From Gammaproteobacteria bacterium (lineage in GTDB: Bacteria > Pseudomonadota > Gammaproteobacteria > GRL18), in the NCBI GenBank assembly GCA_015231865.1, contig JADGAU010000015.1, forward strand, positions 1 through 35,875: a stretch of 35,875 nucleotides of DNA, read 5' to 3'. Shown piece by piece: positions 21,730 to 35,434 of this stretch. The notes under the pieces are model-generated. The model saw nothing but the letters and a program-made list of their open reading frames with translations, did not search any database and was not told the DNA's origin. Both the position numbers and the translations under genes were made by a program. Positions within the stretch are counted from its first letter, which is position 1. The number at the start of each line of letters is the position of its first letter.

Positions 21730-24700
21730 TCAAATACTCAAGCTAAAAGAAAATTTATATTTATCTGCATTAATAGGCTCAATATTATAATCAATTGTTT
21801 TTGCAAGCTTTGCTATTTCATACAAACCCATACCGGCACTTTCTTCTTGATTGATTTTTCTTAATTCCCGATAACGTTTTCTAATGCTTTCTTTATCTAA
21901 AGACAAAATATGCTTTAATTCAGTTTCAATTATTCGTTTATCATCTATGGATATTATATTGTCAGAAGTAATTTGATATAAATCATCTTGAAGTCTCAGA
22001 ACTTCTATAAATCCAACAGGCTCAATTTCTCGTGAACCTTCTTTTTTCGTTTTAGCGTGACTCATAATATTTCGACATAACTCTATTATGATGGATTTTA
22101 ATTGATTCAGAATTTTTGTATCTTCAATATTTAATTTTAAATTATCTACACAGGTCTCTAAGAAATTTTGACTGATGACACCATGATAGTTCAATATTTC
22201 AATTTTTTCTTGAAGCTTAGTCAAGTTCTTCTCGACTGTAAAGGCAACCACTGTAATGTCATCATTACGTTCACTGTCACCTTGGTATTTTTCAAGCTCA
22301 TTAAGTAAAAATTCTTTTTGTTTTTCCATTTTGTTGTTATGAGCTTCTTTTAAAAGAGCTTTAAATCTGTTTTTACCAAAAGGAAAATCTTTATCGCCAC
22401 CATTTTGATCTAGGTAGCCGTCAGAAGTAATATATAGCTGTAATTGAGAAGTGATTTCTATGGTATGTTCAGTGAACTGATAATTATTGTCTGATTTTTT
22501 ATATCCAATAGAATGACGGTTCCCTTTTATCATCTTAAGTTCATTATCCTGAAAATAGAATAAAGGTGTTTCAGCGCCACTATATTTAATATAGTTTTGA
22601 TGCTTATTGTAGTACAAAACACCACCATCAAAGCCCGCATTAGAGATAGCTTCCTGATTATCCTGTTTTAAAAGATGTTTCATACTTTTATTAAATATTG
22701 AAAGAATTTTTGCAGGAGAGACTATTTCATCACTGTTAATAATTCTTGAGACCAGTTGTCTCTCAATGGACTTTACGAGCATCGTAACAAAAGCACCTGG
22801 TACACCATGTCCTGTACAGTCAATTACCATGATCAGTACCTCATCATTACGTAGTTCTGATACTAGATAGATGTCTCCTCCTACAATATCCTTAGGGTTC
22901 CACATGGTAAAATAGTCACTAAAATAAGTATTAAAAATGTCATTAGATGGAATCAAAGCTTGTTGAATAAAGGAGGCGTATTCAATTGATTCTCTTGTAT
23001 GACGATGCAGTTCTTCAAATTTATTTTTTGAGGCTTCGAGTTCTTTGTTATGCTCTAATATCGACTGACGCATACTGAAAAACTCTTGGATCATGTATCC
23101 AATTTCATCATTGTAATAAGATTGTTTTTCAATTATAGGCTTATTGCTTTGAAATGATTCAATCGCCCCGGTCAGGAATAAAACAGGTTTATTGACTTTT
23201 ATGCGTATTAAAATGAATATGAGAATGTTGCCAACTATAAACAATGTGCCGACTAACATAATGAGATAAAAATACATCAATACATTATCTTTTAGTGTCT
23301 TAATTTGAATTTCAGTGCGATCGTTTAACATAACCAGTAATTCATGAATTGGTAACATGATTTTCTGTTTCGCATTATAATATTGATCAGAGTGTAAGAT
23401 GGCCGTTGCATTATCTAGTTGCCCTTGTTCAATTTCTTTAAAAGCACGTTGTTCTAATTTAACAAGATCATCAGAATTGGTTTTTGACAACAATAGTTTT
23501 GCAAGTTCTTCATTGGTAAAAGGCAACTGCTTTATCAATGAGTCAATCGACTTTGCTTCTCCGTCAACATGTAAAAGCTCACGCATTTGTTTATCCAGAT
23601 CCCAGTAAATCCCGAAATATTTTACGGGGCGACTTTTTTCACCGTTTCTAATAGCAAGTACATCATCGAAATTATTTTTAAACGCTTTATCTCCAGTTGC
23701 AGCAAAATTGCGTGCAAAACGAGTCAGATCATCTGAACTTTGCCTTAATAAATCCGTAACCTTATACATTTCGTATCGTTCTTTATGTGCATTGGCCAGA
23801 GCGTTTTCCAGACGATCAAAAACAATAATCTCATAGATCAAAAAGACTGCGACAGTTAATTCAAAAATAATGATGCCGATAGTAAATTTTTGTAAGCTTA
23901 TATGAAGTAGATTGCTGTTGTGATAGGTATAAAAAGCAGTAAAAGCAAATAATATCAACAAGCCCGAGACAAAAAGTATTTCTTCAATTTGAAAAATCTC
24001 TAAAATTTTGACAGAGTGTTCTTTAACCTGGTTTTTTATATCGTGCTGATAAGTCCCAAACCATTTGTCTCGGATTAGCTTATGTTGTTCATGTGTCATA
24101 CTTTTTATCGATTTATCAATAATACTGTGAAGCAGGGGCATATCGGAACGAACGGCGGCATAAACCTTAATAGGATTTCGTTCAACTATAGGAGCATTTA
24201 AAATGATAGAATCTATAAAATTATTTTGTAGTACATAGCTTGTCGAAGGATTATCACCGATATAGGCTTCTGCTTCTCCTGTCATTACTTTACGCAAGGC
24301 ATCAAGAATATTAGGTGATGTAATGACTTTTATATCTGGATAGTTGGTTTTTACCCAAGAAACCACCTCAAAGCCTTCAACTAAAGAGATGGTTTGGCCG
24401 TTTAATTTGCTTAATTGGTTGTAGCGCTTGCTATCATTTTTTGTAAATAAAAACTCTGGCAATGTTAAGTAAGGGGTCGTATATGTTAAGTAGTTTTCAC
24501 GCTCTTTAGCATAATAAAGTGAGGGTAACATATCTATTTGACGAAGTTTTATCGCTTCAAGTAGTTCTATCCAGTTTTTCCCTGTTTCGACTTTAAACTT
24601 CAGTCCACTAATTGTTTCTATCAGAGCCAAATAGTCATTCGCTATGCCTTCATAATTACCGGAAACATTGACGAAATCAAAAGGAGCCCAATCCATTTCT

Positions 24701-25584
24701 CCGCCGACAATAACTTGAGGACGTTTTTTTATCCATGCCTGCTCTGCGGCAGTTAAATTCAATTTAACAGAATCATTTTTGTCTTTTATTTCAGTGATGC
24801 CAATCCATTTTTCTATCAGTTTATCTATGGTGGATTTTGGAATATCTGCTATAGCCTTATTCATAATTGAGAGCAATTCAGGGTACTCTGGTAATATCCC
24901 CATATGAACTGGATGTTCAGTTTCTGCTGTAAAAGATGGAACAATATCATCAAAAAGATACTTTCTAATTTGGTGATGGTAAGTTATGTATCCTAAAATA
25001 GCATCTACTTCTCCGTATTGAAGCATTTCCATTTGTTGTCGGGGTGAAGATGCACTCACAATATTGATATCTTGTATCTCATTTGCATACAGATTCATCA
25101 TTTGGTGACCATTGAGAACGGCTAATCTTTTGTTCTGTAAAGCACTAGTATTATTGATAGCTTGTCTTTGTTTTCTGGAAGTAAAAATATAAAGCGGAGT
25201 GTTGAAATAAGCGTGAGTATAACGGTAGAGTTTATCGTTGACTGGTGTTTTAAAGATTGAAAAAATACCATGCAAATTAAGTTCTTTTGCACGTTTTTTC
25301 ACTGCAACTGGATTATTTACAAGGTCTGAAATTCGTATTTTTTTATTAATTTTTTTTTCAATTATCTTTATGTAATCAGGAAAAAGTCCTTCTATTTGAC
25401 CATTTTGATTTTTAAATACTAAGGGTTCTTGAGAGCTTATTATAGAAAAGTGAATTTCACTTTGTTCTTGTAACCATTTTTGCTCTTTATCAGAAAACTC
25501 AATGTTATCAGTATTATCATTTGTGACAGCATATGATGTTACAACAAAAAATAAAAACAATATTGTGAAAAAGCTTTTAAACAT
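21730..25584 (-). CDS. Dual periplasmic SBP_bac_3 sensor fused to SiaA-like PP2C/SpoIIE phosphatase and SiaB-like (DUF6272) kinase domain
   Basis: Signal peptide; two SBP_3-like regions (FSIISSQEPLVFKNQNG...; IVGGEMDWAPFDFVNVSGNYEG...); two TM segments; SpoIIE phosphatase (MWNPKDIVGGDIYLV, VIDCTGHGVPGAFVTML, ITSDGYLDQNGG); C-terminal SiaB-like stretch (LSLDKESIRKRYRELR...SAGMGLYEIAKLAKTIDYNI). Confidence 0.82.
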   Translation of the reverse strand: MFKSFFTILFLFFVVTSYAVTNDNTDNIEFSDKEQKWLQEQSEIHFSIISSQEPLVFKNQNGQIEGLFPDYIKIIEKKINKKIRISDLVNNPVAVKKRAKELNLHGIFSIFKTPVNDKLYRYTHAYFNTPLYIFTSRKQRQAINNTSALQNKRLAVLNGHQMMNLYANEIQDINIVSASSPRQQMEMLQYGEVDAILGYITYHHQIRKYLFDDIVPSFTAETEHPVHMGILPEYPELLSIMNKAIADIPKSTIDKLIEKWIGITEIKDKNDSVKLNLTAAEQAWIKKRPQVIVGGEMDWAPFDFVNVSGNYEGIANDYLALIETISGLKFKVETGKNWIELLEAIKLRQIDMLPSLYYAKERENYLTYTTPYLTLPEFLFTKNDSKRYNQLSKLNGQTISLVEGFEVVSWVKTNYPDIKVITSPNILDALRKVMTGEAEAYIGDNPSTSYVLQNNFIDSIILNAPIVERNPIKVYAAVRSDMPLLHSIIDKSIKSMTHEQHKLIRDKWFGTYQHDIKNQVKEHSVKILEIFQIEEILFVSGLLILFAFTAFYTYHNSNLLHISLQKFTIGIIIFELTVAVFLIYEIIVFDRLENALANAHKERYEMYKVTDLLRQSSDDLTRFARNFAATGDKAFKNNFDDVLAIRNGEKSRPVKYFGIYWDLDKQMRELLHVDGEAKSIDSLIKQLPFTNEELAKLLLSKTNSDDLVKLEQRAFKEIEQGQLDNATAILHSDQYYNAKQKIMLPIHELLVMLNDRTEIQIKTLKDNVLMYFYLIMLVGTLFIVGNILIFILIRIKVNKPVLFLTGAIESFQSNKPIIEKQSYYNDEIGYMIQEFFSMRQSILEHNKELEASKNKFEELHRHTRESIEYASFIQQALIPSNDIFNTYFSDYFTMWNPKDIVGGDIYLVSELRNDEVLIMVIDCTGHGVPGAFVTMLVKSIERQLVSRIINSDEIVSPAKILSIFNKSMKHLLKQDNQEAISNAGFDGGVLYYNKHQNYIKYSGAETPLFYFQDNELKMIKGNRHSIGYKKSDNNYQFTEHTIEITSQLQLYITSDGYLDQNGGDKDFPFGKNRFKALLKEAHNNKMEKQKEFLLNELEKYQGDSERNDDITVVAFTVEKNLTKLQEKIEILNYHGVISQNFLETCVDNLKLNIEDTKILNQLKSIIIELCRNIMSHAKTKKEGSREIEPVGFIEVLRLQDDLYQITSDNIISIDDKRIIETELKHILSLDKESIRKRYRELRKINQEESAGMGLYEIAKLAKTIDYNIEPINADKYKFSFSLSI

Positions 25585-26078: not shown

Positions 26079-26288
26079 ATGTCAAATACAGTAAAAGGAA
26101 CCGTTAAGTGGTTCAACGAAGCTAAAGGTTTTGGTTTTTTAGAGCAACAATCTGGTCCAGATGTTTTCGCTCACTTTAGTGCAATTGCAAGTTCAGGTTT
26201 TAAGACTCTAGCGGAAGGTCAGAGTGTTGAGTTTATTGTAACTCAAGGACCAAAAGGCCCACAAGCTGAGAATATTGTAGCTATTTAG
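26079..26288 (+). CDS. Cold-shock domain protein
   Basis: [30 protein letters not shown] canonical CSD with RNP motifs. Confidence 0.97.
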
Positions 26289-31594: not shown

Positions 31595-34246
31595 TTATTC
31601 ACCACAACGATCAAGCTTATTTAAACTAGTAAAAACAATCTCTAATTGCTTAATAGTTTCTTCAAATATAGCTTCAATATTATCTGAATTATTTTCGCAT
31701 GTGGTTTGCAGTGTAAAAGCAATTTGATATAGATCTGTCATCCCCAAATTTCCAGCTAAACCTTTAAGTGTATGAGCGATATGAGAGGCTGCTTCTGTTC
31801 CATCCTTATCTAAGCTATCAAGAAATCGCTGTTTAAAATTTTTCTGATTATCGTAGAATTTTAATAATAAACGCTTATACAAATCAGTATTATTTTGTGT
31901 GGTAATTAAGCCTGCCTGGATATCTATTCCAGCGAGTTTAGGCAACTCATAATGATTATTACATGTTTCAGCGTTTATTTTACCTGTATTATCAGAAGTT
32001 ATTTTTACTTTGCTTCTTATCCACTTTGCCATAGTCGTGAACATAACATCCGGATTAATGGGTTTAGCAATATGAGCATTCATTCCAGAGGCAAGAACTT
32101 TGTTTATATCATTTTTCATGACATTAGCAGTTAATGCGATGATAGGTAAATCTTTGAGCCTATCTTGTGAACGGATTTTACGTGTTGCCTCATATCCATC
32201 CATTACCGGCATTTGACAATCCATTAACACGCCATCAAAAGTCTGATTTTCTAATAAATCCAGTGCCTCCTTACCATTATTTGCTGTTTCAACTTCTATG
32301 TTATCCATACGAAGTAGCTCTACAGCTAGTTCCTGGTTAAGTTCATTATCTTCAACTAATAATATTTTTGCACCACATAAATGTTTTGCTGCATGCTTTA
32401 AGTTGTTTTGATTATCTGATAATTTACCTGGTACCACGTCTTCTTGTTGTTCTTTTAGACAAACATTAAAATGAAAGGTACTGCCAATACCCAGCTTACT
32501 TTCTAACCAGATTTTACCATTCATAAGCTCAACAATTTTTTTACTGATGATAAGACCTAAGCCTGTTCCACCATATTGGCGAGTTGTTGAATTATCTGCC
32601 TGGGTAAACGCATTAAACAACTTATCCTGTTGTTCAGCTGTCATACCAATACCGGTATCTTTAATAGAAAAGCATAAGATTATTTTGGAACCCTGGCGCT
32701 TTATAAGTTTTACATGTAAAGTGACTGTGTCGCCAGAATGGCTGAACTTGATAGCATTATTACCGAGGTTGATTAAAACCTGACTCAAACGTAAAGGGTC
32801 TCCATTTATAACATTGGGCACATCTGGATCAATTTTCACCTCAAACTGTATGCCGTTTTCATCTGCCTTAAATTGAGTTAAATTTACCATATTGCTAATA
32901 GCATCACTAAGGTAAAAATCAATCTTTTCAAGTTTAAGTTTATTGGCTTCTATTTTAGAAAAGTCAAGAATATCATTAATTATTCCTAATAAAGACTCAG
33001 CGGCACCATTAACTTTTTTGATATAATTTTCTTGTTTAGGAAGTAGTTTTGTTTGTAAAGCGAGGTGCGACATGCCAATAATAGCATTCATCGGTGTTCG
33101 TATTTCATGGGACATATTGGCTAAGAAGTGAGACTTAGACTGATTTGCTTCTACAGCCTGTTGCTGGCTCTTTTGCAATTTTTTTCTGTCTTCATTGATA
33201 GCCTCTAATAATTGATTAAATGCATTTCCTAAATTTACTATTTCAGTCGAGCCTTTATTGCTAAAAGAAACGTTAAAATTATGATTATGTGTGATCTCTT
33301 TAGCGGTTAGTGCAAAATATTTTAGTTCCCGACTTAGATAACGTCCCAGAAAAAAACCAGTAAAAATTGCTAAAACTGTAGTAAAAAGAGCAATGAAACT
33401 ATTTGATAAAAATAGTTGATGAAGAGGCTGTTCAAGTTTATCCGGATGAATTATTAATTCAATTTCAATGGCTACTTCATCTACTGTATTTGAAAGTAAC
33501 AGTTTCTTCTTGTATTTTAACCAATTCTGGTACTTTTTTTTGAGTATATGACGAGGTAAAGAATGGTTTAGCTCATCATGTATGCCACCTTTAATATCGT
33601 AGTGTAACTGCTGATCATTTATTAATAAAGAATAGCCAATTAATTGCTTTTCCTCATTCATATCGACATGTCGCTTTATTATATCCATATTAAATAAATC
33701 ATGAATTCTATATTGAAAAATCAGGACGCCTTCAGCAAAGCCGGTCTCAGGTAAAACAATGGGTTTGGCAGAAATTAATAGCTCATCATCATCACCAACG
33801 ATAAAGGTCATTTTAGTCTGTTTATTATCAACTACTTCCTTAATCCATGATGCGGGTAGCTCCATTTTTATTTCTTCACGATTTTTGATAATAGGCTTAG
33901 CCATAAAATCAGTCATAATTATATCAAGACTGATATTATCAATTACTTTTAAGTCTTTAATAAAACCGGATAAATAAATATCTCGGTTAATATCATCGAC
34001 TAAAGCATTACTTAATAATGGGTGGGATGTCATTTCCTGATGACGATTATCAATCTGTGTCAGAATATTTCTTAAATATTCATTAATGTCTACCACTTCA
34101 TTTCTGATTTGATTGTTTATTGAACTAAGAAGTTGAGCTTTTAAACTTTGGTAGGATGTAATGCTAAAACCAGCAATAAATAGTATAACTACCAGCGTTA
34201 CGGCTAGGGTTATCCTGGAAGAAAAACTATGGATAGGTAGCTGCAT
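31595..34246 (-). CDS. Hybrid sensor histidine kinase (periplasmic sensor, HAMP, HisKA, HATPase, REC, HPt)
   Basis: [43 protein letters not shown], receiver [11 protein letters not shown]...[20 protein letters not shown], HPt [12 protein letters not shown]. Confidence 0.94.
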
Positions 34247-34258
34247 TATGCTATTAAT

Positions 34259-35434
34259 TTACTCATTAGTTTGTAATGGAACAATAACACCATCTTTTTG
34301 ATAACGGGTCATAAAAACTTGTTCAGCGTTTAAAGCATCATGATCCTGAGCACTAAACACCTGGCCATAATTTCGCACCAGACCCTGATAATTTTTTACT
34401 TTCTCAAGTGCATTACGAATAGATTCTCGATCAGTCGAGCCCGCGATTTTAATTGCTTTTGCCAGAATATGTACTGCATCATAGGCATGACCAAAGCCAA
34501 CCGGAGATTTAATCTGGCTAACATCATCAATATCATACAATTTCTTTGCAATTAACATTACTTTGTTACGTATTACCGGATTAGCTTTATATAAACTAAA
34601 GGTTTGCACCATGACTAAATCAACCTTATTAATGGCTCCATTAGTCTGTTCAAAAAAAGTACCACCACTAATTCCCCAATGAGAAATAATTGGCAACAGT
34701 GGCAGTTCTGCTTTTTCGACCATTTGCCTGACTAAGGCAGAACCTACTTTCGAAGTGCCAATAAAAATAATTGCCTGCGCACCAGCTTGCTTCAATTCAT
34801 TATAGGCTGCGAGCATATTCGTTTCACCATGATAGTGCCAAATTTCTTTAACAACTTCCATATCAGGATGTGAAATAACATATCGATTTATTTCCTTGTG
34901 ATTACTTCTACCCCAGGTGCCATTAATTAGTAATACGCCTATTTTTTTTAATCCTCTGCTACGAGCATAGTTAAGCATTGCAGGTATAGCAATATCGTCC
35001 TTAAGCGAAACGCGAAAGGTATAACTTGGTTGAAAATCATGATCGGTGATGCCATTAGCAGAACCCCAAACATCGAGTAAGGGTATTTTTAAATCATGTA
35101 ATAGTTTTAATTGTTTTAAAATAACTGGACTAAAGCGGCCACCCAATACAGCAACCAGATTAGGATCTTTAGCAAATTGTTTTAGGTTTTCCAGACCCCG
35201 TGGAGGAGACATTCGATTGTCAGTAGTAATTAATTTTAATGGTCTGCCATTTAAAACACCGCCAGCTTCATTAATTTCTTCAATAGCAATCTGTGCACCT
35301 CTTTCTATGGCTGTGGCTGAAGTAGCTCCTTTTAGGCCATAAGTGCCATCAAAGCCAATAACTACAGGATCTAGTGCAAAGCTGTTACTGCTTATCAAGC
35401 CTAGAAATATTAATAAAATTATTTGTTTATTCAT
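34259..35434 (-). CDS. Periplasmic branched-chain amino acid-type substrate-binding protein (Peripla_BP_6)
   Basis: Signal peptide MNKQIILLIFLGLISSNSFA; VVIGFDGTYGLKGATSATAIERGAQIAIEEINEAGGVLNGRPLKLITTDN. 12 nt upstream of the hybrid kinase on the same strand. Confidence 0.92.
   Translation of the reverse strand: MNKQIILLIFLGLISSNSFALDPVVIGFDGTYGLKGATSATAIERGAQIAIEEINEAGGVLNGRPLKLITTDNRMSPPRGLENLKQFAKDPNLVAVLGGRFSPVILKQLKLLHDLKIPLLDVWGSANGITDHDFQPSYTFRVSLKDDIAIPAMLNYARSRGLKKIGVLLINGTWGRSNHKEINRYVISHPDMEVVKEIWHYHGETNMLAAYNELKQAGAQAIIFIGTSKVGSALVRQMVEKAELPLLPIISHWGISGGTFFEQTNGAINKVDLVMVQTFSLYKANPVIRNKVMLIAKKLYDIDDVSQIKSPVGFGHAYDAVHILAKAIKIAGSTDRESIRNALEKVKNYQGLVRNYGQVFSAQDHDALNAEQVFMTRYQKDGVIVPLQTNE

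Follow-up and report, generated by a model that had tools for sequence, protein, structure and literature searches.

A periplasmic sensor protein joining a SiaA-type phosphatase to a SiaB-family domain: a candidate switch for c-di-GMP breakdown

Can both arms of a Ser/Thr phospho-switch be placed on one polypeptide, behind one periplasmic sensor? A gene in the 35,875-nucleotide stretch that we analysed (contig JADGAU010000015.1, hereafter the window) raises this question. It comes from a sulfur-metabolising gammaproteobacterium, and an initial annotation read its product as a SiaA phosphatase and an antagonistic SiaB kinase fused behind two substrate-binding domains. The phosphatase (PP2C) and SiaB domains are indeed homologous, by sequence and by fold, to SiaA and SiaB of the Pseudomonas aeruginosa SiaA-SiaB-SiaC-SiaD system, a biofilm switch whose phosphatase and kinase are as a rule two proteins. 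We favour, with somewhat better than even confidence, a ligand-gated membrane partner switch that acts on SiaC in trans: by setting its phosphorylation, the switch would control cyclic di-GMP (c-di-GMP) hydrolysis by an HD-GYP protein encoded on another contig, C136.

The open reading frame lies on the minus strand and contains no internal stop, whereas the plus strand across the same interval is riddled with stop codons. Pfam matches all exceed their curated cut-offs: SBP_bac_3, twice (E 3.4e-32); SpoIIE, on residues 914-1117 (E 8.8e-21); and DUF6272, on residues 1151-1276 (E 1.7e-19; 70.3 bits, cut-off 26.6). Together with the transmembrane segments, these bear out the domain content first proposed. 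The protein thus combines two Venus-flytrap (VFT) domains, a SiaA-type PP2C and a SiaB-family domain in a single chain (Table 1). An AlphaFold model of residues 848-1284 (mean predicted local distance difference test score, 88) shows a long helix at the end of the linker region (794-895). Its fold matches are 6K4E (SiaA), 3KE6 (the RsbU-RsbW fusion Rv1364c), and the SiaB of 6KKO, the last answering the initial call for a structure prediction of the C-terminal domain. An assembly artefact was rejected as the source of the fusion: the PP2C-SiaB junction recurs on contig C241 of the same genome and in unrelated genomes. No RNA families were found in the window.

The phosphatase domain departs little from expectation. 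The SiaA PP2C structure 6K4E matches it by sequence (E 2.4e-37). SiaA binds metal through D457, D474, D600, and D653, plus D604, and is modelled to hold phospho-SiaC by a loop with E609, F612, and R618 (PMC7647112). In the fusion, D904, D922, D1055, D1059, and D1108 are invariant across 49 related PP2C domains, and the SiaC-contact loop carries D1064 (conservative for E609), F1067, and R1073. Because the five aspartates are invariant and the loop Phe and Arg are present, the phosphatase is very probably active, and its description as SiaA-like holds. The NCBIfam SiaA model aligns to residues 793-1118 with 231 bits, short of the whole-protein equivalog cut-off of 700, and the N-terminal region is unrelated to that of SiaA; this is therefore a SiaA-type domain rather than a SiaA orthologue.

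The SiaB domain is less regular. Structure 6KKO, titled as a SiaB-SiaC complex, matches the C-terminus by sequence (E 7e-8 to 2e-7). (The matched chain is SiaB, yet its molecule field reads "putative serine phosphatase".) The Glu, Asn, and two Gly invariant in 54 aligned SiaB domains are kept as E1168, N1172, G1251, and G1253; N1209 is kept likewise. The same alignment reveals changes at six conserved positions: Q1171R, Y1176H, K1248E, G1249S, F1254L, and F1268I. Moreover, compared with the C241 paralogue, the window protein has an ATP-lid (before G1251) shorter by three residues. The NCBIfam SiaB_fam_kinase model scores 77 bits on residues 1123-1282, slightly below its cut-off of 85. The proposal of a C-terminal kinase thus survives as to family and core residues, and is weakened as to lid, substitutions, and score. 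Because the domain departs from its family around the ATP-lid, kinase activity of the window copy appears doubtful.

These departures are what an alternative builds on, in which the window protein is a phosphatase-only sensor whose SiaB domain merely docks or holds SiaC near the PP2C, while stand-alone SiaB proteins (contigs C136 and C279) and other fusions carry out phosphorylation. It gains from a comparison within the genome, where the SiaB domains of C241, C136, and C279 all score above the NCBI kinase cut-off that the window domain misses. However, the Glu, the Asn, and the two Gly residues that never vary in the family are retained, and in the alignment P. aeruginosa SiaB also lacks the conserved Lys ahead of the Gly motif. 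Contig C286 (L014:4186-5769) presents the reverse case: between REC and an intact SiaB lies a PP2C remnant from which the metal-ligand motifs are missing, so that the protein looks like a kinase-only descendant of a PP2C-SiaB fusion. Fused SiaB domains would then be useful as enzymes, and we consider the phosphatase-only sensor unlikely, if a serious contender. Beside the C286 gene lie genes for a REC-GGDEF protein and a hybrid histidine kinase.

What might the preferred switch act on? The host genome (3.54 Mb in 299 contigs) was searched by profile. No SiaC or GGDEF match lies on the window's contig, as the initial annotation had noted for the window, but three SiaC genes lie elsewhere. Contig C279 carries SiaB-SiaC at its end; C136 carries SiaB-SiaC and a 263-residue HD_5 (HD-GYP) protein; and C265 carries a cut SiaA-type PP2C and SiaC. 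All three SiaC proteins have N-S-S at the position of P. aeruginosa SiaC N67-T68-S69, so that a phosphorylatable Ser replaces Thr68. The genome also holds seven DUF6272 matches (six above the cut-off) and ten SpoIIE domains, of which seven are classed as SiaA-type for their similarity to that of the window protein. Contig C241 encodes a second PP2C-SiaB fusion, with its N-terminus cut, about 55% identical to the window protein over both domains. Inputs on the other SiaA-type phosphatases are FIST, PAS, Cache-like, or REC. On contig C33 (L015:6149-8611), a SiaB domain lies N-terminal to a REC-PAS-PAS-histidine kinase.

A target other than SiaC would have to be sought among STAS-like proteins, in the manner of an RsbU/RsbW switch. 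Contig C52 offers one, together with a SpoIIE phosphatase, a GGDEF protein, and a weak DUF6272-like ATPase (26.1 bits, below the cut-off), and Rv1364c-type fusions act on STAS domains (PMC9138534). But C52 encodes a divergent kinase and phosphatase of its own, the window PP2C retains the Phe and Arg of the SiaC-contact loop, and close relatives adjoin SiaC. A STAS target is thus very improbable.

On the Pseudomonas precedent, the output would be a SiaD-like diguanylate cyclase. SiaC binds the helical stalk of SiaD: T68 of SiaC contacts S82 and Q86, and residues near T68 contact D83 as well as Q86 (PMC8457831). These contact residues (S-D-x-x-Q) are repeated in the N-terminal helix of the C136 HD-GYP protein, whose predicted structure is a single 78-residue helix followed by the HD-GYP fold. 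The closest match of this model is the c-di-GMP phosphodiesterase 4MCW (46% identity), and the HD, HH, and GYP motifs are intact. Among 15 HD outputs, the HD-GYP motifs and stalk residues D41, R43, and Q44 are invariant, and S40 nearly so. The gene order (VFT-)PP2C, SiaB, SiaC, HD protein recurs in Campylobacterota and Gammaproteobacteria. For example, in an Arcobacteraceae metagenome-assembled genome (MAG; locus L057), a protein with three VFT domains, PAS, PP2C, and SiaB is encoded by the first gene of an operon that continues with SiaB, SiaC, and HD-GYP.

A cyclase output on the P. aeruginosa model, in which the sensor acts on the C279 or C265 SiaC to increase c-di-GMP synthesis, must be set against this. 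The genome contains 78 GGDEF matches; C279 ends right after SiaB-SiaC, leaving the next gene beyond the contig end; and the C279 SiaB falls outside the HD-GYP-linked branch of the SiaB tree. The fusion-type SiaB, by contrast, is nearer that branch. Moreover, the genome stalk search was convincing for the C136 HD-GYP protein only, and a convincing S-D-x-x-Q stalk is absent from all the GGDEF reading frames read at 20 loci, a result that covers part of the GGDEF set and is not a full exclusion. With a stalked HD-GYP protein beside SiaB-SiaC and no convincing stalk on those GGDEF frames, the output of the fusion's sub-branch is likely an HD-GYP phosphodiesterase, and a SiaD-like cyclase is improbable. 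The genome-wide partner search proposed at the outset therefore yielded SiaC in triplicate and a different output enzyme. In two further loci (L047:5707-7863 and L048:588-2741), histidine-kinase-like proteins of 718-719 residues (HATPase, weak Hpt) bear a KIIRISDRQQ stalk and adjoin SiaA-SiaB genes; SiaC may have a kinase output besides.

The signal would enter through the periplasmic region, which resembles EvgS by NCBIfam; the solved periplasmic domains of BvgS and EvgS are direct sequence matches to the tandem VFT region. Those proteins have a histidine kinase as output, where the fusion has PP2C-SiaB. Arg and Asp are the residues typical of amino-acid-binding substrate-binding proteins. 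Alignments to solved relatives indicate that VFT1 lacks this Arg, and that VFT2 retains both Arg (AKERENYL, 359-366) and Asp (YIGD, 441-444). VFT2 therefore probably has an amino-acid-like ligand. There is precedent in RmcA, where L-arginine sensing through a VFT domain feeds c-di-GMP turnover (PMC9028604). The second periplasmic loop of the fusion (590-774) is also present in relatives.

These elements suggest the following sequence of events. Ligand at the two VFT domains, with the second periplasmic loop, would send a signal across the membrane into the coiled-coil linker. Linker coiled coils that dimerise PP2C domains relay signals from many sensor types (PMC12143880), and this one would set the activity of a dimeric SiaA-type PP2C. 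The phosphatase would strip phosphate from the Ser at the Thr68 position of SiaC, acting on one or more of the SiaC proteins whose genes lie on other contigs, with the C-terminal SiaB domain as the opposing kinase that resets SiaC. Unphosphorylated SiaC would then grip the helical stalk of the output, most likely the C136 HD-GYP phosphodiesterase, and tune c-di-GMP breakdown. For the direction of the SiaC effect on HD-GYP we rely on analogy with SiaD, and VFT ligand binding is presumed to gate both activities.

We prefer this SiaC switch because its evidence is of several kinds: the domains, residues, and fold of the fusion; three phosphorylatable SiaC proteins; the junction in a paralogue and in other genomes; the recurrent operons, including that of L057; and a candidate output with intact HD-GYP motifs, a 78-residue stalk, S-D-x-x-Q, and the 4MCW match. 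Other points weigh against it. The SiaB domain falls below the NCBI family cut-off and is altered at the six conserved positions and in lid length. The fusion gene adjoins no SiaC gene, so that we infer its substrate. Finally, the genome is fragmented, and a SiaA proper to the partner operon may be encoded in a gap of the assembly. A fuller picture is more tentative, and we rate it somewhat short of probable: both opposing enzymes under a single periplasmic input; a SiaC-activated HD-GYP that hydrolyses c-di-GMP, as a mirror image of SiaD; and several VFT, FIST, PAS, Cache-like, and REC sensors that converge on few SiaC proteins in one cell.

How widespread is the architecture? A species-genome collection scanned with a SiaB profile and one peptide pattern gave 37 loci, counts that are not frequencies. 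The one-protein fusion of the initial annotation is real but not unique: besides C241 and L057, there are L058 (FIST-PP2C-SiaB), L062 (PAS-PP2C-SiaB), L063, and L052 (REC-PP2C-SiaB, with SiaC and HD-GYP genes after it), and related fusions appear in PMC9239204. L058 and L062 have assembly prefixes in common with L086 and L067, which carry SiaC. The junction occurs in Campylobacterota and Methylococcaceae. PP2C-SiaB fusions are nonetheless rare in the samples. Eleven genomes in a sample of 369 Gammaproteobacteria exceeded the DUF6272 cut-off, with clearly long frames only in the host genome; among 399 Pseudomonadota, true fusions were confined to the host genome and L052. Apparent fusions in G595 and G567, suggested by long open frames, were rejected, the SiaB and PP2C lying in different overlapping frames.

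In the SiaB tree, nine of eleven SiaB domains from long proteins, the window's included, share a clade with 100/99 support that also contains two stand-alone SiaBs. (L053, counted among the eleven, is an overlap of frames and not a true fusion.) In the PP2C tree, the sister of the window domain is the FIST-PP2C encoded on contig C70, a protein without SiaB. Fusion-type SiaB would therefore be an old sub-branch in front of which domains have been exchanged. A single origin of all PP2C-SiaB fusions was rejected: the SiaB tree is compatible with one sub-branch, the PP2C tree is not. A SiaB remnant behind the C70 gene, where a match overran the stop, was not found on inspection. In a Helicobacteraceae MAG (GLR69; L061:3111-5492), a fusion-type SiaB forms the C-terminus of a LapD-like protein (LapD_MoxY_N, weak GGDEF, EAL), which may be a c-di-GMP receptor that phosphorylates SiaC and so closes a feedback loop. 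In G005, of the same family (L042:3123-18325), four SiaA-type PP2C genes, three of which encode VFT domains, stand in a row on one strand with a single SiaB gene among them, a local sensor expansion.

Against this background, the window protein takes its place among known systems. The host shares with P. aeruginosa its SiaC homologues, and the C136 HD-GYP protein shares the stalk contact residues of SiaD. Unlike in P. aeruginosa, SiaA and SiaB activities are in one chain, a VFT sensor replaces the SiaA N-terminal region, the gene lies outside any SiaC operon, and the likely output is HD-GYP rather than GGDEF. L057 has the same domain order, and fusion-type SiaBs fall in one clade; the L057 protein has three VFT domains and PAS inside an operon, whereas the window gene stands outside such an operon and encodes two VFT domains and a more diverged SiaB. 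Rv1364c of Mycobacterium tuberculosis likewise places PP2C before a GHKL-type kinase, and is a characterised fusion in which both enzymes act on one phosphoprotein (PMC9138534). It differs in that its STAS substrate is part of the same chain, its PAS domain is cytoplasmic, and a sigma factor is what it controls; the window protein has a separate substrate and a periplasmic sensor. For Campylobacterota, a survey published in 2022 predicted pathways that combine a PP2C bearing a periplasmic sensor with a kinase, a STAS protein, and an enzyme of c-di-GMP turnover; it also predicted a REC-PP2C-kinase fusion (PMC9239204). Because these pathways and Rv1364c precede it, the kind of fusion is already known; in the literature searched, DUF6272 is not mentioned and DUF1987 appears in one paper.

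If the proposed switch operates, both arms of a Ser/Thr phospho-switch would answer to one periplasmic ligand, an arrangement that parallels bifunctional histidine kinases. SiaC proteins could, it suggests, steer c-di-GMP breakdown as well as synthesis, and the S-D-x-x-Q stalk would be a marker for finding further kinds of SiaC output in Campylobacterota and Gammaproteobacteria.

Table 1. Layout of the fusion gene (window coordinates; residue numbers refer to the protein)
Feature	Position	Strand	Evidence
Complete gene, 1284 residues: VFT-VFT-TM (transmembrane)-periplasmic loop-TM-linker-PP2C-SiaB	21730..25584	-	Open reading frame, Pfam, NCBIfam
Signal-peptide-like hydrophobic N-terminus, 1-20	25525..25584	-	Hydropathy scan
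VFT1 (SBP_3), 25-265	24790..25512	-	Pfam, NCBIfam, solved relatives
VFT2 (SBP_3), 271-512	24049..24774	-	Pfam, solved relatives
TM helices 533-551, 571-589, 775-793, and second periplasmic loop, 590-774	23206..23988	-	Hydropathy scan
Membrane-proximal linker, HAMP-like and coiled-coil region, 794-895	22900..23205	-	SiaA model span 793-1118; model helix
SiaA-type PP2C phosphatase, 896-1118	22231..22899	-	Pfam, 6K4E, alignment, fold match
SiaB/DUF6272 kinase-like domain, 1123-1284	21733..22218	-	Pfam, 6KKO, alignment, fold match

Two neighbours in the window deserve mention. A 69-residue cold-shock-protein-like reading frame (26079-26288, plus strand) lies between the fusion gene and a divergent molybdopterin oxidoreductase gene. 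At 31595-35434 (minus strand), a hybrid histidine kinase, seen by eye, is encoded just downstream of the gene for a periplasmic binding protein of branched-chain type, and is probably another periplasmic-ligand sensor.

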